Source of the DNA: Bryobacterales bacterium
Lineage (GTDB): Bacteria > Acidobacteriota > Terriglobia > Bryobacterales > Bryobacteraceae
NCBI GenBank assembly: GCA_020852755.1
Contig: JADZAF010000241.1
Span: 1 to 64,000 of the forward strand
Direction of reading: 5' to 3'
DNA length: 64,000 bases
Shown here in pieces: positions 53,895-64,000 of this stretch; position 1 is the first letter of the stretch, and the number at the start of each line of letters is the position of its first letter. A model generated the notes under the pieces. It made no database searches and was not told the DNA's origin. It worked only from the letters and a program-made list of their open reading frames with translations. The translations under genes and the position numbers were made by a program.

Positions 53895-55822
53895 TATTCC
53901 AATGGTACGCTTCCTCCGTGCCAGGGAAAGGCATAGCTGGGCCGGTTGGCGAAGCGCCGTGTACCCAGCTCCAGACGGATGCCCGTCCCCGGCGGCAGTT
54001 CCACCCCCAGGTACTTCCCGTTCACCGGCAGTTCCACTTCCGTCTTACCCGCCGCGTGCTTCACCGAAGTGAACTGGTGCTCGCCGAAGGCGCCCGCCTG
54101 CACGACCAGCCTGCGGGCATGCGTCGCCCCCAGGTTCACCAGTTGCACCACCGTCCGCTCCGCCTCCAGCCTTTCCACCAGCGCCGCGACGTCCTTGGGC
54201 AGCCCCGGCCGCATCCGTTCCGCGTCGAAGTAGCGCACCCGCGCCCGCAGCAGTCCTCCGTTGTAGATCGTCTGCGGCGCCCCCAGGGTCACCTGCGCCA
54301 GCGCCTTGGTGATCACCGGGTTGTACTGATACAGATCGTCGCCGAAAATCCGGGTGGGCGCCCGCTTCTCCGTCCGGATCCTCTCCAGCCGCCGCTGCGA
54401 CTCCAGGTAGTCGGCCCGCAACGCCTTCTCCGGCCAGTCCGGGTTCTTGCCCGCGTAATACATCAGGCTCGGGTAGCGGGTCAGGGTGAAGTCCATGCGG
54501 TCCCCTCCCACCGGCACTTCCGTCCAGTCCTCGTTGGAGCCCGCCCGCACCCGCTCGATGCGCTCCCAGTCCTTCGAATCCATGGACTCGTGCCACAGGT
54601 GGGCCAGGTCGCGCAGCGGCATCGGGCGGAACTTCTCCCAGCCGTTCGGGCCATAGTTGTGCGGCGCCACCAGGCGGCCCTGTTCCCTCCGGGCCTGGCC
54701 GAGGATCACGTCCAGCTGGGACCGCAGCAGGTCCAGGTATTTGGCGTCGCCGGTGAGCAATTGCGCGCACTCCGCCGCCACGGTCAGCGAGCCGTGAATC
54801 ATATGCAGCGAATACAGTCCGGTCCAGCCGAAGTGCCCGCCCCACCATTGCCCGTCCCGGTACTCGCCGATCCTGCCGCTCAGCCCTACGTTGTCCGGCA
54901 CAATGCCGTTGTTCCGCCGGATGCGCTCCATCCACGCTTCCACATAATCAATGACCCACTGCTTGTATTTCTCCTCGCCGGTGTAAAGATACGCGTTGGT
55001 TACCAGTCCGGTGGCGGCCAGGTTCACCGGCACGTCGCCTCGCATCACCAGGCGGTCGAAGATATCCAGCACCTCCTCGCGCCGCTTGGGATCCTCGTAC
55101 CAGCGCGGCTCCAGGTTTTTGATGGCCGGGTAGATGCTGGCGTGGTTGCCCCGTTCCAACCGGTAGCGGACGAAGCCCAGCCGGTCTCCGCTCCAGGCAA
55201 ACAACGGCCCCTGGCTGCTGGTGAAGGGCGCCCGGATCAACTTCAGTTTCGGATCGTAGTTGATCGCCTCCGGGCCCTCGTTCATGTAGAATCCGGCGAA
55301 GCGCTTGGCCCTGCGCACGTTCTCCGGTATGGCCGGCTCCCCCACCGCGAAATCGTAGAAGGCCATCATGCCTTCGCTGATGTGGAACCAGTCGCAGTCC
55401 GCGTGGCGGGAGTAGAACTCCTTGTGAAGCTGCGGAGTGTAGCGGCGGTTCTTCGGATATCCTTCCGGCGGCGCGAACAGGTGCTCGTGGTGGCGGGTGA
55501 TTCCGTTGTAGTTCTCCAGCGCCCGGTGGAACAGGTCCTCATCCGCGCCCATGGCATAGAACAGCGGCCAGTTGAAGAACATCTCGTACACGTCGTCCAC
55601 GGGACCTTCGCCGTAGGTGGTGCCTCCCGGCCGCACGAAGTGCTTCACGAACACAGGCGCGGCCTCTTCCATGGTCCGGATCAGGTGGCGCTGCATCACC
55701 GCCCAGCCGGGCGGCGGCGTCCGCTGATCCGCCTTCACCCACACCATCTCGGGCATCGCCTGTCCGCTCATCAGGTCCGCGGCCAGCAGGGCAATCGCAA
55801 GAATGCGTATCCGCTTCATCAT
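53894..55822 (-). CDS. Secreted helical-toroid glycosidase-like protein
   Basis: 642 residues; signal peptide about 1-20. The main part (about 40-500) is aromatic-rich and helical, with D-V-Y-E-M-F-F-N-W, HADCDWFHISEGMMAFYDF and GWTGLYSLHMIHG, which suggests an alpha/alpha-barrel glycoside hydrolase or lyase, followed by a beta-sandwich tail (about 520-642). I cannot assign a CAZy family. Start overlaps the aldolase stop by four bases. A secreted enzyme whose products feed the kinase-mutase-aldolase genes of the same operon is a plausible reading. Confidence 0.6.
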   Translation of the reverse strand: MMKRIRILAIALLAADLMSGQAMPEMVWVKADQRTPPPGWAVMQRHLIRTMEEAAPVFVKHFVRPGGTTYGEGPVDDVYEMFFNWPLFYAMGADEDLFHRALENYNGITRHHEHLFAPPEGYPKNRRYTPQLHKEFYSRHADCDWFHISEGMMAFYDFAVGEPAIPENVRRAKRFAGFYMNEGPEAINYDPKLKLIRAPFTSSQGPLFAWSGDRLGFVRYRLERGNHASIYPAIKNLEPRWYEDPKRREEVLDIFDRLVMRGDVPVNLAATGLVTNAYLYTGEEKYKQWVIDYVEAWMERIRRNNGIVPDNVGLSGRIGEYRDGQWWGGHFGWTGLYSLHMIHGSLTVAAECAQLLTGDAKYLDLLRSQLDVILGQARREQGRLVAPHNYGPNGWEKFRPMPLRDLAHLWHESMDSKDWERIERVRAGSNEDWTEVPVGGDRMDFTLTRYPSLMYYAGKNPDWPEKALRADYLESQRRLERIRTEKRAPTRIFGDDLYQYNPVITKALAQVTLGAPQTIYNGGLLRARVRYFDAERMRPGLPKDVAALVERLEAERTVVQLVNLGATHARRLVVQAGAFGEHQFTSVKHAAGKTEVELPVNGKYLGVELPPGTGIRLELGTRRFANRPSYAFPWHGGSVPLE

Positions 55823-56490
55823 GACGTAGTTCTCATCCGCGCCAGCAGCTGCTGGCGGTACTGCTCGCTCGAAAGCGCCGTCAAACGCCCGGCTTCTTCC
55901 CGGCTCAGGAACCGCGGCGCGCCGGCCGTCGCGGCCAGCAGCTGGATCCGGGCGCCTTCTTCCACGGTACAGGCTCGCCAGAACGCCTGCTTGAGATTCT
56001 CCCCCAGGGTGATGGCGCCGTGGTTGCGCAGGATCACGCAGTTCGCCTCGCCCACCACGGCCTCGACCGCACAGGCCAGCTCCGGCGTCGTCACCGTGAC
56101 GTAATCCACGTGCGGGATGTCGTACCCCAGGTAGATCACGAAGTCCGCGAACATGGGCTTCAGGTCGTGCCCCGAGCTGGTGAGCGCGATGGTGTACTGC
56201 GGGTGGGTGTGGATCAGCGCCCGGATGTCCGGACGGCGGCGGTAGCAGGCCAGGTGCATCAGCACTTCCGACGACGGCCGCGGCGTGCCCGGCTCGATGG
56301 CCCCCGTGGCGATGTCCACCGCTACGTACTCCTCCGGCTTCACTTCTTCCAGCGAGAAACCGGACGGCGAGATCAGCATCGCCGGGCCCTCCCGGGCGCT
56401 GATGTTTCCTCCCGCCCCGGTGGCCAGCCCCTGCCGCAGAATCCGTTTCGAGTATTCGGCCAGTTCGGCCCTGACTCTCTCCAGGCTCAT
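55819..56490 (-). CDS. Class II aldolase (fuculose-1-P/rhamnulose-1-P aldolase-like)
   Basis: 223 residues. The zinc-dependent aldolase site is complete: E75 (PSSE), H94 and H96 (IHTHPQ) and H157 (RNHGA). The family cleaves L-fuculose-1-P or L-rhamnulose-1-P to DHAP and lactaldehyde, or is a ribulose-5-P 4-epimerase-like enzyme. With an FGGY kinase three genes upstream this gives a kinase-aldolase pathway, but the isomerase is missing. Overlaps both neighbours (ATGA). Confidence 0.9.
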   Translation of the reverse strand: MSLERVRAELAEYSKRILRQGLATGAGGNISAREGPAMLISPSGFSLEEVKPEEYVAVDIATGAIEPGTPRPSSEVLMHLACYRRRPDIRALIHTHPQYTIALTSSGHDLKPMFADFVIYLGYDIPHVDYVTVTTPELACAVEAVVGEANCVILRNHGAITLGENLKQAFWRACTVEEGARIQLLAATAGAPRFLSREEAGRLTALSSEQYRQQLLARMRTTS

Positions 56491-57830
56491 AACCACTCCG
56501 CGATTCTCTCTTCCAGCAGAGGCGCCGCCCTCAGGCAGGTCCGCGCCAGCCTGCGCAGGGCCTCCCGGTCGCACCCCTCGATGCTCAGGGTCACCACCGG
56601 CTCGGTCACCGACTCCCGCAGCAGCACGGTCCCAAAAGCCGTCTCCAGCCGGAGCCCGTCCAGCCGCGTTTCCTTCGCCCCGGGGAACAGCTCCCGCAGC
56701 TTCTCGACCGTCTCCGCGAACGGCACGGCCTCGGCCGGAAGTCGCAGGTCCGGCGTGGCGAAGATGGGTGGCACTGTCTTTCGTAGACGGCTCAGTGAAC
56801 CGCCTTCCGCCACTACCTGGCTCGTCAGCAGCGCCGTGAACAGCCCGTCGTCGCCGCCTTCGAGCTCTCCATGGAAGTAGTGGCCGCTCGCCTCGCACCC
56901 GAACAGGCAGTCTTCGACGATCATGCGGGTCTTCAGGAACGAGTGCCCGCTGCGCTCCATGATGGGTACCCCGCCCGCTGCCAGAACCTCGCGGCGTACT
57001 ACGTCGGAGAGCTTGATGTCGTGGACCACCTTCTCGCCCCGCCGTTCTTCCAGCAGATGGCGAGCCAGCAGCACGGCGATTTCGTCCGCCCGCGCCACGC
57101 TGCCCGTCTCGTCCACGAACGCCACCCGGTCGCCATCCCCGTCCCAGGCGATGCCCAGCCGGGCGCCGGTTCTCACCACCGCTTCCCTCACGGCGTTCAG
57201 GTTTTCCGCCCGGGCGCTGTCCGGCGCACGGTTGGGGTAGCGCCCGTCGAATTCGCAGAACAGGCGGTGCACTTCGAATCCGAGCGTCTCGAAAACCTCC
57301 GGGCCCAATTCGCTCCAGGCGCCGTTGCCCGCGTCCAGCACCACGCGCAGCCCGTCCGAGCCTCGCCAGCGCTCCAGAATCCACTCCCGGTACGGGATCG
57401 CGGGGTTGATCGTCTCCAGGCACCCCTCGGCCCGCCGCCGGCGCCCGGATTCCGTTCGATGGCGCAGGCTGCCAAGGTCCTCCGGCGTGGCCGGCAGCGA
57501 CCCGGTCATCAGCTTCAAGCCGTTGTGGTCGGGCGGGTTGTGCGAGGCCGTCACGATTGTCACCGCGTGCGCGCGCCAGTGCTTCTGGGCGAAATAGGCC
57601 AGCGGCGTGGGGACCTGCCCGGCATCCAGAACCCGCGCTCCGGCGCCCAGCAGGCCCTCCATCAGCGCCCGCTTCAGGACCGGAGTGCTCTCCCGGAAGT
57701 CCCCCGCCACGACCACCCGGGCCCGCAACGGCAGGCCGGAGGCAAAGGCCGCTCCGATCTTCTCGAACAGCTCCCCGGAGACCTCGCCGGGAAACGGACC
57801 CCGGAGGTCGCAGGCCTTCCAGGCGGTCAT
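56487..57830 (-). CDS. Phosphomannomutase/phosphoglucomutase family protein
   Basis: 447 residues of the alpha-D-phosphohexomutase family. Phosphoserine loop TASHNPP with S96, metal loop DGDGDR at 230-235, sugar loop CEASGHYF near 313, and a C-terminal phosphate-binding region. It moves phosphate between C1 and C6 of hexoses. In this operon it may return or activate a sugar phosphate, or act on an unusual sugar. Start ATG 57830 overlaps the kinase stop. Confidence 0.9.
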   Translation of the reverse strand: MTAWKACDLRGPFPGEVSGELFEKIGAAFASGLPLRARVVVAGDFRESTPVLKRALMEGLLGAGARVLDAGQVPTPLAYFAQKHWRAHAVTIVTASHNPPDHNGLKLMTGSLPATPEDLGSLRHRTESGRRRRAEGCLETINPAIPYREWILERWRGSDGLRVVLDAGNGAWSELGPEVFETLGFEVHRLFCEFDGRYPNRAPDSARAENLNAVREAVVRTGARLGIAWDGDGDRVAFVDETGSVARADEIAVLLARHLLEERRGEKVVHDIKLSDVVRREVLAAGGVPIMERSGHSFLKTRMIVEDCLFGCEASGHYFHGELEGGDDGLFTALLTSQVVAEGGSLSRLRKTVPPIFATPDLRLPAEAVPFAETVEKLRELFPGAKETRLDGLRLETAFGTVLLRESVTEPVVTLSIEGCDREALRRLARTCLRAAPLLEERIAEWL

Positions 57831-59209
57831 GGTCCGTACCCCCGCCGCGCGCAGGCCTCGCGGAAACGGCCGTAGAGTTCCGCATAGCGCGGCGCCAGGT
57901 CCGAAGCAGGATCGAAAGTTGCGCGCACCCGCGTCATGGCTCGGATCGCCGCCGCCGCGTCCCCGGCGAAGAAAGCTCCGGACGCGGCCAGCACCGCCGC
58001 GCCGAATGCCGAGGTGGGGTGCTGTGCCAGGATGACCGGGCGGTTCAGGACGCTGGCGCGCAGCGAGGAGTAGACCGCGCTGCGGGCCGCGCCTCCGGCC
58101 GAGTAAACCGCGCCTCCGGCCGGGATGCCGCACTCCTGCATCACTTCGTAACCCCAGCGCTCCACGAAGGCCAGCGATTGCAGGCGCGCCGCGTGCCGTT
58201 CCCCGCAGGTGCCCGCTGCGCCTTCCAGGAACGTCTCCGCTTGCGCATTCAGGAACGGAAACCGCTCTCCCGGCGCACTCAGAAAGTAGCCCACCGCCTC
58301 GCATGGCAGGCAGCCGTTCGCCTTGACGTCCTTTTCGGCCTCCCCGGTTTCCCTGTCCACCACCCGCAGCATTCCCGGCCCGGTGTTGCTGGCGGCCCCC
58401 GGCGCCCAAAGCCCGCAGGGGTGCAGGTGGCAGTAGATGCCGCGCGCGGCCTCCGGCCGGACCGCTGCCAGCGCCTTCCAGACCAGGGTAGTGCCGAGCG
58501 TCGTATTGGCATCCCCCGGCCGGCTCGCGCCGGAGGCCGCCAGCCCCGCCATGCCGTCGGTGGCGCCCGCATACACCGGGACTCCGGCCGGGATGCCGGT
58601 CTGCTCCGCCGCCCGGCAGGTGATCTCTCCGATACGCTCTCCGGGCTTCACCACTCGCGGCAGCCGCTCGCCGGGCAGTCCGGCCGCGCGAACCGCTTCG
58701 TTCCAGCCGCGCGCTTCGGGGTCGTAGCCCAGCTTCAATCCATTGGAGTAATCGGAGAGGCCGAAAACGCCGGTCAGCTTGCCCGCCAGCCAGTCGGCCG
58801 GGTGCAGGAGGTACCGCGCCCGTTCCCACAGTTCGGGCTCCCGCTCCCTGACCCAGACCGCCTTGGCCAATGAATACGATGCGTTCAACCCCAGGCGCGA
58901 CCCGACCTCGGCGCTGCGGCCGTCGTCATAAAGGATGGCGGGACGCACCGGCCGCCCGTCCGCCCCGGTGAGCACCAGGCTTCCCGAGGTGGAGGTGATC
59001 GCCACCCCCGCGATCTCACCCCGGCAGACCCGCTGCGTCACCGCGCACACCGCCCGCCACCAGTCCTCCGGCGACTGTTCGTGCAGCGGCCCGCTGCGGC
59101 GGTCGGAAACCAGCTCCGCCTGGGCTTCGCTGATCACGCCGCCCTTGCAGTCTGCTGCAACGCCTCGCACGCCGCTGGTTCCCACGTCGATCCCTATCAC
59201 CGCTGCCAT
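57827..59209 (-). CDS. FGGY-family carbohydrate kinase
   Basis: 460 residues. ATP-binding D8-V-G-T and catalytic D218 (AGATDGMAG) are present, with the FGGY C-terminal ATPase half (AGGAARS, TSAFGAAVLA). Nearest in style to xylulokinase/gluconokinase; the substrate cannot be read. First of six overlapping genes (through DUF362), probably transcribed from just upstream of 59209, where TAGATT lies 15 bases before the ATG. Confidence 0.9.
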   Translation of the reverse strand: MAAVIGIDVGTSGVRGVAADCKGGVISEAQAELVSDRRSGPLHEQSPEDWWRAVCAVTQRVCRGEIAGVAITSTSGSLVLTGADGRPVRPAILYDDGRSAEVGSRLGLNASYSLAKAVWVREREPELWERARYLLHPADWLAGKLTGVFGLSDYSNGLKLGYDPEARGWNEAVRAAGLPGERLPRVVKPGERIGEITCRAAEQTGIPAGVPVYAGATDGMAGLAASGASRPGDANTTLGTTLVWKALAAVRPEAARGIYCHLHPCGLWAPGAASNTGPGMLRVVDRETGEAEKDVKANGCLPCEAVGYFLSAPGERFPFLNAQAETFLEGAAGTCGERHAARLQSLAFVERWGYEVMQECGIPAGGAVYSAGGAARSAVYSSLRASVLNRPVILAQHPTSAFGAAVLAASGAFFAGDAAAAIRAMTRVRATFDPASDLAPRYAELYGRFREACARRGYGP

Positions 59210-59333
59210 CGCAGTCCGGCGTCGAATCTACCACAACCCGATTCCAGGCCACAATGACAGTGCAGGCCCTCCCTCGATGAGCTTCCTCCCCCGGTGATGC
59301 CATAATGGAATTGCAGCCTTCCGTTTGAGCACT

Positions 59334-61466
59334 ATGCAGGCAACCGAGCCGAGGAGCGCACCGGTGCTGGCCGTCAGCGCCACCTTCACCGCCGAGTTGA
59401 TTGAAGATACGCTACGGTTCTGGATGCGCGAGCTGGGACTGGATTTCGAGATCCGGTTCGCCCCCTACAACCAGGTCTTCCAGCAACTCCTCGACCCCGG
59501 CAGCCTGCTGCTCGGCAACCGGTCCGGCGTCAACCTGGTGCTGGCCCGCCTGGAAGACTGGGCCCAGTCGGGACCCGAAGCCCTCGAGTCCAACGTCCGC
59601 CACTTCATTTCCTGCCTCCACAGCGCGGCTGCGGCGGTCGCCGCGCCCCTGGTGGTCTGCCTCTGTCCCGACTCCCCGCGTTTTCTCTCCGGCCGCGAGG
59701 AGACCATCGAGCGCCTGCACCAATCCGTGTGTACCGCGGCCGCGGAGCTCAATTCCGTCTACGTGCTCACGGCCGGCGCGATTCTGCGCTCCTATCCCGT
59801 GTCCGGCTACTACGACCCGCACGGCGACGAACTCGGCCACGTCCCTTACACACCGGCGTTCTTCGCCGCCCTGGGCACCGCCGCCGCCCGCCGCATACGC
59901 TCCCTCCGCGTAACCCCTTATAAAGTGGTCGTGCTCGACTGCGACGAGACGCTCTGGTCGGGAATCTGCGGCGAGGACGGCCCGGAGGGCATCCGCATCG
60001 ATCCGCCGCGCCGCGCGCTCCAGGAGTTCATGCTGGCCCAGCACGATGCCGGCATGCTGCTTTGCCTGTGCAGCAAGAACAACGAAGAGGACGTGCTCGA
60101 AACCTTCCGGCTCAATCCGGACATGCCGCTCCGGCTCGAACATTTCGCCAGCCGGCGCATCAACTGGGAACCGAAGTCCAGCAACCTGGTGGTCCTGGCC
60201 GAGGAGTTGGGCCTGGGCCTGGAAAGCTTCATTCTGGTGGACGACAACCCCAAGGAGTGCGCCGAGGTCCAGGCCAACCGGCCGGAGGTCCTGACCCTGC
60301 AGCTGCCGTCCGATCCCTCCGGGATTCCCGGCTTCCTCGAGCACGTCTGGGCCTTCGACCACCTGAAAACCACCGCCGAGGACAGCCGGCGTACGCTGCT
60401 CTATTCCCAGCGGGCCGAACGCCACCGCCTGGAGAAGCAGGCCGTCAGCCTGGAAGCCTTCCTGGAAGCGCTGGATTTGAAGATCGAGATTGCCCCGGTG
60501 CGCCGGGAGCAGATCGCGCGCGTCTCTCAACTCACCCAGCGCACCAACCAGATGAACTTCACCGCCGTGCGCCGGACCGAAGGCCAGATCCAGGCCCTGC
60601 TGCGCGCCGGCGCGGAGTGCCTCACCGTCGAGGTGAAGGATCGCTTCGGCAGCTACGGCCTGGTCGGCGTCATGATCTTCGAATCTTCGCCGGAGGCCCT
60701 GACTCTGGACACCTTCCTGCTCAGCTGCCGGGCGCTCGGCCGCGGCGTCGAGCACCGCATGCTGGCGCGGCTGGGCGAACTGGCCCCCGAACGCGGAGCC
60801 GGGTGGGTGCTGGTCCGCTTCCGGCCGGCCGCCCGCAACCGCCCCGCCCTCGACCTTCTGCGCTCCGTGGGCAGGGACTTCGAGCAGCCGGACGGCGAGA
60901 GCCTGCTCTTCCGTTTTCCGGCCGCATACCTGGCGGGAGTGCGGTACAAGCCCAACGAGCGGCCGTCCAAGCCTTCATTCGAGAAACCGCTCGAGACGGT
61001 GGCCAACAACGGCCGGCCGGAAACCGACTTCGCCCGCATCGCTCGCGAACTCTCCCGTCCGGAGCGCATCCTGGAGCATGTTCGGGCCGGACGCCAGGCT
61101 TCCAGCGCCGCAGCCAACTCCGACGCCGCTCCCCGCACCGGCCTGGAGCGCGAGTTGACTGCCTTGTGGTCCCGTCTCCTCCACGTGCCTTCCCTGGGGG
61201 TTCACGACAACTTCTTCGACTTGGGCGGCCACTCCCTGCTGGCCGTGCAGTTGATCTCCGAGGTACGCCGGAAGTTCAACGTGGACCTCTCCCTGCAAAT
61301 CATCTACGGCGGCGCCTTCACCGTGGCGGAGCTGGCCAAGGCGATCGAGCTCTTCCAGATCGAGCAGGCCGGGGCGGGCGGGTATGACGATCTGCTGGCC
61401 GAGCTGGAAGGCCTTTCCGACGAGGAAGTGAAAGCCCTGCTGGCCCGCGAGCAGGGCGCCGGATAG
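59334..61466 (+). CDS. FkbH-like HAD protein with C-terminal carrier domain
   Basis: 710 residues (an in-frame TTG at 59325 is less likely). Residues 1-195 are the N-terminal SGNH-like half seen in FkbH proteins. DCDETLW at about 202-208 is the HAD nucleophile motif, with LVDDNPKE near 302; a GNAT-like region follows (about 370-540). FkbH proteins load glyceryl from 1,3-bisphosphoglycerate onto a carrier protein, giving glyceryl- or methoxymalonyl-type extender units. Here a carrier domain is fused at about 605-690, with its phosphopantetheine serine in LGGHSLL (about 634), and a helical LEGLSDEEV tail typical of assembly-line proteins. Heads a plus-strand run with two glycosyltransferases. 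Confidence 0.88.
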   Translation: MQATEPRSAPVLAVSATFTAELIEDTLRFWMRELGLDFEIRFAPYNQVFQQLLDPGSLLLGNRSGVNLVLARLEDWAQSGPEALESNVRHFISCLHSAAAAVAAPLVVCLCPDSPRFLSGREETIERLHQSVCTAAAELNSVYVLTAGAILRSYPVSGYYDPHGDELGHVPYTPAFFAALGTAAARRIRSLRVTPYKVVVLDCDETLWSGICGEDGPEGIRIDPPRRALQEFMLAQHDAGMLLCLCSKNNEEDVLETFRLNPDMPLRLEHFASRRINWEPKSSNLVVLAEELGLGLESFILVDDNPKECAEVQANRPEVLTLQLPSDPSGIPGFLEHVWAFDHLKTTAEDSRRTLLYSQRAERHRLEKQAVSLEAFLEALDLKIEIAPVRREQIARVSQLTQRTNQMNFTAVRRTEGQIQALLRAGAECLTVEVKDRFGSYGLVGVMIFESSPEALTLDTFLLSCRALGRGVEHRMLARLGELAPERGAGWVLVRFRPAARNRPALDLLRSVGRDFEQPDGESLLFRFPAAYLAGVRYKPNERPSKPSFEKPLETVANNGRPETDFARIARELSRPERILEHVRAGRQASSAAANSDAAPRTGLERELTALWSRLLHVPSLGVHDNFFDLGGHSLLAVQLISEVRRKFNVDLSLQIIYGGAFTVAELAKAIELFQIEQAGAGGYDDLLAELEGLSDEEVKALLAREQGAG

Positions 61467-61469
61467 CCC

Positions 61470-62756
61470 ATGCGGGTTCTGCTGGCCGCCAACGCCTCCT
61501 ACGTGCCCCCGCGCGGCGGCGCCACCCGCAGCAACCTGGTCTGGCTCGGCGAACTCTCCGCGGCGGGGCACGAGTGCCGGGTGGTGGCCGCCGCTCCCCC
61601 GCGCGACACCGCCGCCCAGCGTGAGCAGCTCGAATCCGAGCTTCGCCGGCAGCGCATCCCGTTCACTCCCGCCGCCGGTCTCGCCCGTGACGCCGTCGAG
61701 ACCGCCCAGGTGCGGGACATCGCGGTGTATTCCGCTTCCGGCCCGGCGCGCCGCAGCGCCCTGCTCCGCGAACAGATCCGCGGGTTTCAGCCTGATTGGG
61801 TGCTGGTCTCCTCCGAGGATATCGGCCAGGTCCTGTTGCGCGAGGCCCTGAATGCCGCGCCCGGCCGGGTGGTCTACCTGGCCCATACCCCCCAGTTCTT
61901 CGGCTTCGGCCCTCAAAGCTGGAACCCGGACCCTCATGGCGTCGAACTGATGCAGGCGGTCGCGGGGATCGTGGCCATCGGCCGTCATATGGCGGAGTAC
62001 ATCCAGCGCCACTGCGGGCGCCCGGCCGCCGTGGTCCATCCCCCGGTCTACGGACGTGGTCCCTGGACGTCCTGCGCCTCGCTCGAAGGCGGCGCCGTCG
62101 CCATGATCAACCCGTGCGCCATCAAAGGCCTTCCCATCTTCCTCGAGGTCGCCCGGCGGTTTCCGCACCTTCCGTTCGCCGCCCTGCCGGGATGGGGCAC
62201 CACCGCCGCGGACCGGGCGGCGCTCTCCGCCCTGCCCAACCTGACCCTGCTGCCCCCCTGCCCCGATATCGAGGATTTTCTGCGCCAGACCCGCCTCCTG
62301 TTGATGCCCTCGCTCTGGTACGAGGGCTTCGGACTGATCGTGGTGGAGGCTATGCTGCGGGGAATCCCGGTGGTCTCCAGCGATTCGGGCGGCCTGGCGG
62401 AAGCCAAGCTGGGCACCGGCTTTGTGATCCCCGTGCGCCCCATCGAAAGCTATCTGCCCGAGTATGACGAGCACGCCATACCCAGGGCCGTGATCCCGGA
62501 GCAGGACATCGAGCCCTGGACCGCGGCGGTTGAGAGCCTGGCTGCGGACCGCGAGGTCTACCAACGCGAGTCGCGGGCAGCCCGCGAAGCCGCTTTGCGC
62601 TTCGTCGCCGGCGTGCGGCCGGACGGGTTGCAGGAGTTCCTGGAAAGCCTGGCGCCCGCCGCCGCGCCTCCATCTCCCGGCGATCTCCTCACCCGGCTGT
62701 CTCCCGAAAAACGAGCCCTGCTGCTGGCCCGCCTGCGCCGGCGCGCCGCGCAGTGA
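61470..62756 (+). CDS. Family 4-type glycosyltransferase with assembly-line-like tail
   Basis: 428 residues, GT-B fold. N-terminal GGATRSNLVWLGEL loop, C-terminal INPCAIKGLPIFLEVA, GWGTT, and the E-x7-E pair in LWYEGFGLIVVEAM, the retaining-enzyme donor site. Residues 405-425 read LTRLSPEKRALLLARLRRR, which resembles the short helical docking or condensation-entry motifs found in NRPS proteins, so the enzyme may act on a carrier-bound or assembly-line product. Starts three bases after the FkbH-like gene. Donor sugar unknown. Confidence 0.82.
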   Translation: MRVLLAANASYVPPRGGATRSNLVWLGELSAAGHECRVVAAAPPRDTAAQREQLESELRRQRIPFTPAAGLARDAVETAQVRDIAVYSASGPARRSALLREQIRGFQPDWVLVSSEDIGQVLLREALNAAPGRVVYLAHTPQFFGFGPQSWNPDPHGVELMQAVAGIVAIGRHMAEYIQRHCGRPAAVVHPPVYGRGPWTSCASLEGGAVAMINPCAIKGLPIFLEVARRFPHLPFAALPGWGTTAADRAALSALPNLTLLPPCPDIEDFLRQTRLLLMPSLWYEGFGLIVVEAMLRGIPVVSSDSGGLAEAKLGTGFVIPVRPIESYLPEYDEHAIPRAVIPEQDIEPWTAAVESLAADREVYQRESRAAREAALRFVAGVRPDGLQEFLESLAPAAAPPSPGDLLTRLSPEKRALLLARLRRRAAQ

Positions 62757-62767
62757 ACCGTCCCGCC

Positions 62768-64000
62768 ATGCGCATCCTTTTGGCCCACAACTCGCTGTAC
62801 TATCCTTCGCACGGCGGCGGCGACCGCTCCAACCGTTTGCTGATGGAAGCCCTGGCGGCCTCCGGCCACGAGTGTGCGGTGGTGGCCCGCACGGGCAGCG
62901 CCGGCCCCGAAGCGCTCACCGGCCTGCTGCGGGAGCTGGCCGCCCGCGCGGTCCGGCCCGATTCCGTCGAGGGCGGAGTAGTGCGCTTTCAACTGCGCGG
63001 GACCACGGTCCACACCGTGGCCGACCATCCCAACCTGCGGGCCTATTTTTCCACGCAGGCCGCGGCCTTTCAACCGGACGTGATCCTGGCCTCCACCGAC
63101 GATCCGGCCCAGGTCCTGCTGGAGGCCGCCCTGCGCGCCGGCCCGCCCGTTGTCTACCTCGCCCGCGCCACCCTGGCCCTCCCCTTCGGGCCCGACTGCG
63201 CCTTTCCGAGCGAGGCCAAGACCGGGCAGTTGCGCCGCGCCGCCCGGGTGGTGGGAGTCAGCGGCTACGTGGCGGACTATGTACGCCGCTTCGGCGGCCT
63301 GCCGGCCGTGCACGTGCCCATCTCGCTGCTCGACCCGGGCCCCTGGCCGGACCTCGGCCGCTTCGACAACCAGTTCGTCACCCTGGTCAACCCCTGCGCG
63401 GTGAAAGGCGTCGCCATTTTCACGGCGCTGGCCGGCGCTCTGCCCGGCGTGCGCTTTGCGGCCGTGCCCACCTGGGGCACCAGCCAGGCCGACCTGGAAG
63501 AACTGCGCCGCCGCCCCAACATCGAACTGCTCGAACCGGTGGACGACATCGACCGGCTCCTCGAACGGACCCGCGTGCTGCTCGTGCCGTCCCTGTGGGC
63601 CGAGGCGCGTTCGCGGATCGTGGTGGAGGCCATGCTGCGCGGAGTGCCCGTCGTGGCCAGTAATATCGGGGGTATCCCGGAGGCCAAGATGGGCGTTCCC
63701 TACCTGCTGCCGGTCGCGCCCATCCAGCGCTACCGTCCCGAGTTGGACGAGCACATGGTCCCGGTCGCCGAGGTTCCGCCGCAGAACATACACCCATGGA
63801 AAGAGGCGCTGCAGCGGTTGACCTCCGATCCCTCGCACTACCGCGAGGTCTCCGTGCAGTCCCGTGCCGCGGCCCTGCGCTATGCGGAAGAACTCAGCGC
63901 GCGGCCCTTTGAGGACCTGCTGCGGGAAGCCGTGCGGGAACCGCGTACCGCCGCCCTCCCCGCCTCGGCGTCTCCTCCACGGCCGGCCGGGCCGCTCGAA
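62768..64000 (+). CDS. Second family 4-type glycosyltransferase, 3' end outside window
   Basis: Open for 411 codons to the window edge, so no stop is seen. ATG 62768 begins the conserved MRILLAHNS...GGGDRSN start; GTG 62753, overlapping the preceding stop, is an alternative. It is a clear paralogue of the previous gene: VNPCAVKG, TWGTS, and E-x7-E in LWAEARSRIVVEAM. The last 35 residues turn into an alanine/proline-rich linker (about 385 onward), so another domain probably follows beyond the window. Likely same pathway as the FkbH-like gene. Confidence 0.85.
   Translation, partial: MRILLAHNSLYYPSHGGGDRSNRLLMEALAASGHECAVVARTGSAGPEALTGLLRELAARAVRPDSVEGGVVRFQLRGTTVHTVADHPNLRAYFSTQAAAFQPDVILASTDDPAQVLLEAALRAGPPVVYLARATLALPFGPDCAFPSEAKTGQLRRAARVVGVSGYVADYVRRFGGLPAVHVPISLLDPGPWPDLGRFDNQFVTLVNPCAVKGVAIFTALAGALPGVRFAAVPTWGTSQADLEELRRRPNIELLEPVDDIDRLLERTRVLLVPSLWAEARSRIVVEAMLRGVPVVASNIGGIPEAKMGVPYLLPVAPIQRYRPELDEHMVPVAEVPPQNIHPWKEALQRLTSDPSHYREVSVQSRAAALRYAEELSARPFEDLLREAVREPRTAALPASASPPRPAGPLE

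Follow-up and report, generated by a model that had tools for sequence, protein, structure and literature searches.

A three-gene FkbH-carrier, glycosyltransferase and thioesterase cassette in Bryobacteraceae that may build a glycosylated glycerate on a carrier protein

I found that a soil acidobacterium of the Bryobacteraceae has a cassette of three genes, which encode an FkbH protein with its own carrier domain (FkbH-ACP), a GT4 glycosyltransferase (GT1), and a second GT4 glycosyltransferase fused to a thioesterase (GT2-TE). The cassette crosses the right edge of the window, which is the whole stretch of 64,000 nucleotides analysed (positions 1-64000 of contig C241 in a genome of 7.4 Mb). 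At a rough probability of 60%, the cassette encodes a self-contained pathway in which a carrier-bound glycoside would be loaded, glycosylated, released, and in many genomes exported.

The cassette and its surroundings

The FkbH-ACP gene (59325-61466, plus strand) encodes 713 amino acids from a TTG codon at 59325, with an alternative ATG start at 59334. The protein consists of an N-terminal FkbH region, an FkbH HAD domain (residues 199-520), a carrier domain (610-674), and an acidic C-terminal tail. A first-pass annotation of the window had recognised an FkbH protein with its own carrier domain, and profile searches agree: TIGR01686 matches residues 199-520 with 293 bits against a cut-off of 146.65, and PF00550 matches residues 610-674 with 56.8 bits against a cut-off of 20.8 (61.3 bits in the genome scan). 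In the catalytic domain (59919-60884, plus strand), the HAD residues D205, C206, D207, T209, S250, K284, D306, and D307 are intact, and across 26 cassette relatives they are conserved at a level of 95% or more. The carrier (PP-binding) domain (61152-61346, plus strand) has the motif LGGHSLL, in which GGHSL starts at residue 634 and the phosphopantetheine serine is residue 637. The GGHSL motif, whose serine the annotation had regarded as decisive for its reading, was found in all of the 26 cassette relatives checked. The FkbH proteins of the cassettes group together in a tree with moderate support.

The GT1 gene (61470-62756, plus strand, 428 amino acids) begins three bases past the FkbH-ACP stop codon, and its product ends with LSPEKRALLLARLRRRAAQ, both as first described. 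The GT2 gene (62753-64000 within the window, plus strand, with a likely ATG start at 62768) passes the window edge; a basic helix follows from 64001, then a type II-like thioesterase, and the gene ends at contig position 64807. GT2 is about 40% identical to GT1, which bears out the suspected paralogy. All of the features that the first-pass annotation had seen were thus confirmed, and all are far above chance.

Contig C241 ends at 76197, 12.2 kb beyond the window. No NRPS or PKS domain was found by Pfam scans in the 12.2 kb from the window edge to the contig end, and genome-wide Pfam scans found no carrier or condensation domain on the 3′ side of GT2-TE up to the contig end. Nor does the cassette have the adenylation, condensation, or ketosynthase domains that mark an NRPS/PKS cluster. 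The genes following GT2-TE encode a GFO/IDH/MocA oxidoreductase, then TerB, DUF418, an aldo/keto-reductase-like protein, sugar-metabolism enzymes, and others. The GFO/IDH oxidoreductase was considered as a cluster member and rejected, as it has no relative in the other cassette loci compared. The cluster consists of three genes only, here and in relatives. Because the contig could be followed for another 12.2 kb and the cluster has no genes beyond these three, the idea that a larger megasynthase locus has its left edge here is rejected. Carrier-dependent enzymes, the lack of which downstream had been named as an objection to the original reading, are present, since the GT2 gene ends in a thioesterase.

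Sugar-metabolism genes lie directly 5′ of the cassette on the minus strand in divergent orientation (55819-59209); one encodes an FGGY kinase according to Pfam, and others resemble phosphoglucomutase and class II aldolase. At another locus, DhaK- and DhaL-like dihydroxyacetone kinase genes, recognised by eye, are located near the contig end (L009:15302-16910), approximately 9.5 kb past the cassette.

Co-occurrence of the three proteins and an exporter

Is the cassette common in the family? It was revealed that the FkbH-ACP/GT1/GT2-TE block recurs in more than 20 genomes with mostly unrelated flanks. Nearly all of these genomes are assigned to the Bryobacteraceae/Bryobacterales or to the family of the window genome. 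The family was sampled with one genome per genus, 37 in total: all three proteins occur in 20 of them, FkbH occurs by itself in one (G032, adjoining an NRPS), and 16 contain none of the three, a partial GT match in G030 being left out of the count. The co-occurrence gives a Fisher p of 1.3e-9, in a test that ignores shared ancestry. The genes need not be adjacent. In G029, they lie on three contigs (C102, C64, and C82) and are still all present; in G014 (contigs C91 and C205), the FkbH-ACP gene is in the middle of a contig, apart from the GT genes; and in G025, an unrelated gene sits between the two GT genes. Thus, the main evidence that FkbH-ACP, GT1, and GT2-TE act together is that they co-occur even when unlinked. 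In five genomes, GT1, GT2, and TE form a single polypeptide of about 1000 amino acids, which links the sugar steps to thioester release.

The FkbH-ACP loci of cyanobacteria were not accepted as the same cassette; their FkbH proteins are close, but the GT pair is absent within 10 kb, with the exception of an NRPS-embedded GT in Crocosphaera. No description of a GT/GT-TE partnership with FkbH, and none of Bryobacteraceae with such clusters, was found in the literature searched, in which subscription papers are thinly covered, so that both are weak negatives.

A gene for an EntS-like MFS transporter adjoins the cassette in five loci (L034:8508-9776, L126:6763-8046, L127:11912-13207, L129:6875-8173, and L035) and lies 7 kb off in L043. 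In a tree of MFS relatives, two clades (support 100/99 and 100/100) contain cassette genomes only, whether or not the gene is adjacent; a third clade occurs generally in the group. A member of the two clades was found in 12 of the 20 cassette genomes versus none of the 17 others (p = 7e-5, shared ancestry being ignored). According to the same tree, the window genome has no exporter of these clades (A/B), only the general MFS type.

Glycosyltransferases, helices, and assembly-line relatives

GT1 matches the GT4 profiles PF13692, PF00534, and PF13439. The EX7E glutamates (E285/E293 in GT1 and E284/E292 in GT2) are retained here in both proteins according to ortholog alignments, although the catalytic E293 of GT1 is changed to Q in one relative (L041). 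The canonical GT4 histidine of GT1 is replaced by arginine in GT2. The AlphaFold models are confident (pLDDT 89.3 for GT1 and 87.6), and MshA, BshA, and PimA are PDB neighbours of the GTs. These share the GT-B fold, and the acceptor of BshA is L-malate, a small hydroxy acid; they do not depend on a carrier, have no assembly-line helix, and are only 12-18% identical to the cassette GTs.

The TE domain matches PF00975 with 153.7 bits and has the motifs GHSMG, GGRDDPN, and GGHFF. It resembles the type II thioesterases RifR and RedJ in both sequence and fold, with the catalytic serine in GHSMG; the PDB neighbours BorB, RifR, and RedJ are 35-41% identical in the top Foldseek hits, and another search gave E about 3e-43. 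Type II thioesterases are often mere editing hydrolases. Whereas RifR, RedJ, and BorB are separate editing proteins of PKS/NRPS systems, the cassette TE is not free-standing; nearly all loci encode it as part of the GT2 glycosyltransferase protein.

The first-pass annotation had reported the FkbH-ACP tail LLAELEGLSDEEVKALL, which was found as claimed, and had compared such tails with those of assembly lines. The comparison holds within this genome: the acidic tail LLAELEGLSDEEVKALLAREQGAG (61392-61463, plus strand), which is conserved in relatives and may be a docking motif, and the basic C-terminal helix of GT1 LSPEKRALLLARLRRRAAQ (62697-62753, plus strand; residues 412-427 in the AlphaFold model), a putative docking helix, match motifs of bona fide PKS/NRPS subunits encoded on contig C95, where one protein ends with LLAEIERLSDREARSLL and another starts with LSDRIAGLSPEKRALLLARL. 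In the sets measured, the net charge is -3 to -9 for the FkbH-ACP tails and +3 to +6 for the GT1 tails of the orthologs. A helix of the LSPEKRALL type also sits between the GT and the condensation domain in NRPS relatives. In the five fused GT-GT-TE proteins, the copy of the helix after GT1 is gone and the copy before the TE is kept. Thus, there is one helix per polypeptide, the pattern expected of a docking element. Motif, charge, and presence pattern together suggest that the acidic carrier tail docks with the basic GT helices. An extra GT2-like protein with the same LSPEKRALL helix end was observed as a free-standing protein away from a cassette (L230:1997-3370, in G499:C38).

Strong GT matches outside the family are few in a phylum sample of 396 genomes. 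The GT matches outside the family, including those in genomes of other FkbH-ACP loci, are mostly domains of NRPSs, and the hosts of such GT-embedded NRPSs are Acidobacteriota, a Chloroflexota genome, and the cyanobacterium Crocosphaera. A GT4 is fused ahead of the condensation (C) domain in GT-C-A proteins (L064:12504-19754, L196:8170-17058, and L225:9898-13575), a GT-C-dioxygenase protein (L226:6495-10379), and a GT-C-FkbH-ACP protein of Crocosphaera (L227:9696-14543). In L064, the GT-C-A protein follows a C-FkbH-ACP protein. A GT4 with a conserved helix linker before a C domain may possibly be an undescribed type of NRPS domain. A midpoint-rooted tree resolves GT1 and GT2 as two distinct clades, with the NRPS-embedded GTs as basal branches on the GT2 side. 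From these sequences, the cassette would be a reduced NRPS line that has kept the GT-helix and FkbH-ACP parts and lost the C and A domains.

The GTs might instead not act on the carrier at all, if FkbH-ACP and the TE served to attach a glyceryl ester to a glycan assembled separately by the GTs. TE domains can transfer onto hydroxyls, the PDB neighbours of the GTs use free small acceptors or lipids, and in G057 an FkbH domain, a carrier, and a thioesterase are joined in one protein of 977 amino acids (L203:9057-11987) without adjoining cassette GTs, possibly a minimal glyceryl-transfer enzyme. It is difficult to reconcile such a role with GTs that bear an assembly-line helix, a TE fusion, and NRPS-embedded relatives, and genes for glycan assembly are never recurrent beside the cassette in the loci compared. 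I therefore regard this explanation as rather improbable.

Does the cassette serve an NRPS or PKS encoded elsewhere? The window genome itself has NRPS/PKS genes (C95, C97, and others) with 13 condensation-domain matches, and the C95 proteins share the tail and helix motifs. Thus, the cassette could be an accessory that supplies a distant line with a glycosylated glyceryl starter, its TE acting only in editing. In contrast, no condensation domain was found at E <= 1e-20 in 12 of the 20 cassette genomes (G004, G005, G006, G011, G012, G018, G021, G022, G025, G028, G029, and G035), and nine of the 12 are at least 92% complete. An NRPS partner is therefore not required, and since the cassette is kept in these genomes, a general dependence on NRPS/PKS is impossible. 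The accessory role is very improbable. An obligate condensation or FAAL partner acting in trans in the window genome was likewise rejected, since most cassette genomes have no condensation domain and the window genome gave no FAAL match at E <= 1e-60.

Two loci depart from the usual layout. In G033, a protein of 1857 amino acids (L041:6572-12145) consists of a FAAL-like AMP-binding domain, an ACP, a condensation domain, FkbH, and an ACP, and is followed by GT and GT-TE; this assembly is likely a glycolipid line. The contig end truncates the condensation domain that stands ahead of FkbH-ACP in L040, where the usual GT and GT-TE follow. Trees place the two as sister lineages inside the cassette group. 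These loci could mean that the cassette in general is a glycolipid line, in which glyceryl-ACP would be acylated first, by a condensation domain fused or in trans or by another acyltransferase, and then glycosylated and released. Yet most cassettes have no acylation domains, the 12 genomes above have no condensation domain of any kind, and the window genome has no FAAL match at E <= 1e-60. Thus, this is an unlikely reading for the cassette as a whole, although it is the least improbable of the three alternatives.

The proposed pathway and its product

The preferred reading remains a self-contained pathway on the fused carrier. The cassette has the complete domain set (FkbH, ACP, GT4, GT4, and TE) with its catalytic motifs retained. 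Glyceryl loading, glycosylation on the carrier, docking, release by the TE, and export are inferences. Judging from the intact motifs, FkbH would load glycerate from 1,3-bisphosphoglycerate as a thioester on the fused carrier. Both GT4s would then bind the carrier protein, probably via the acidic tail and the basic LSPEKRALL helices, and would transfer sugars in turn, probably twice, onto one or more hydroxyls of the glyceryl unit, with nucleotide sugars as donors. The fused type II-like TE would hydrolyse the thioester or hand the acyl group to an acceptor, giving mono- or diglycosylated glycerate or an ester of it, which the co-inherited EntS-like MFS transporter may export in many relatives. 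Where a condensation domain precedes FkbH, as in two relatives, acylation of the glyceryl unit is probable as well and would give a glycolipid. Glycerate that carries one or two sugars, free or as an ester, is thus predicted as the most likely product, with an acyl group added in some relatives. Of the first-pass proposal, a glyceryl unit held on the carrier and leading to a glycosylated product or glycolipid is still the best reading, while the megasynthases expected past 64000 were not borne out.

As for the tetromadurin pairs Mad7/Mad8 and Mad14/Mad12, in which an FkbH HAD protein works with an ACP, a glyceryl thioester from 1,3-bisphosphoglycerate is expected here. OzmB is another example of glyceryl-ACP loading by FkbH. 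In these systems, glyceryl-ACP goes on to a tetronate or to methoxymalonyl-ACP for a PKS, whereas here two GT4s and a TE follow and there is no synthase. The FkbH chemistry itself is already known, from glyceryl-ACP loading in the two tetromadurin systems (PMC7489565) and from DysB of dysinosin, whose FkbH and carrier domains load glyceric acid in an assembly line (PMC6520454). DysB shares with the cassette an FkbH with a carrier that loads glyceric acid, and its glyceryl unit is also decorated. On the other hand, DysB belongs to the NRPSs and contains C, A, and E domains; its decoration is sulfation rather than carrier-bound glycosylation, and a GT-TE fusion is not described for it.

Pathways of the GpgS type start from free 3-phosphoglycerate and use other glycosyltransferase families and no carrier protein. 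The predicted end product, glycerate with one or two sugars, is nevertheless similar to that of the GpgS and MGLP pathways. Such glucosyl- and diglucosylglycerate pathways are known for GpgS and for mycobacterial MGLP precursors (PMC2581804, PMC4555173).

A wider proposal, somewhat short of even odds and made tentatively, is that a dedicated assembly-line GT4 family glycosylates thioester-bound hydroxyacyl groups, here glyceryl, and has been pared down in Bryobacteraceae to a megasynthase-free line of three proteins that makes and exports glycosylglycerate. Sugars of natural products are usually added after release from the synthase. If true, the cassette would be a minimal and easily testable case of sugar addition on an assembly line, and a clean system of three proteins, without a megasynthase, for studies of docking between carriers and GTs. 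Its product would be an unrecognised, possibly exported metabolite, retained in roughly half of the examined genera of a family that is common in soil.
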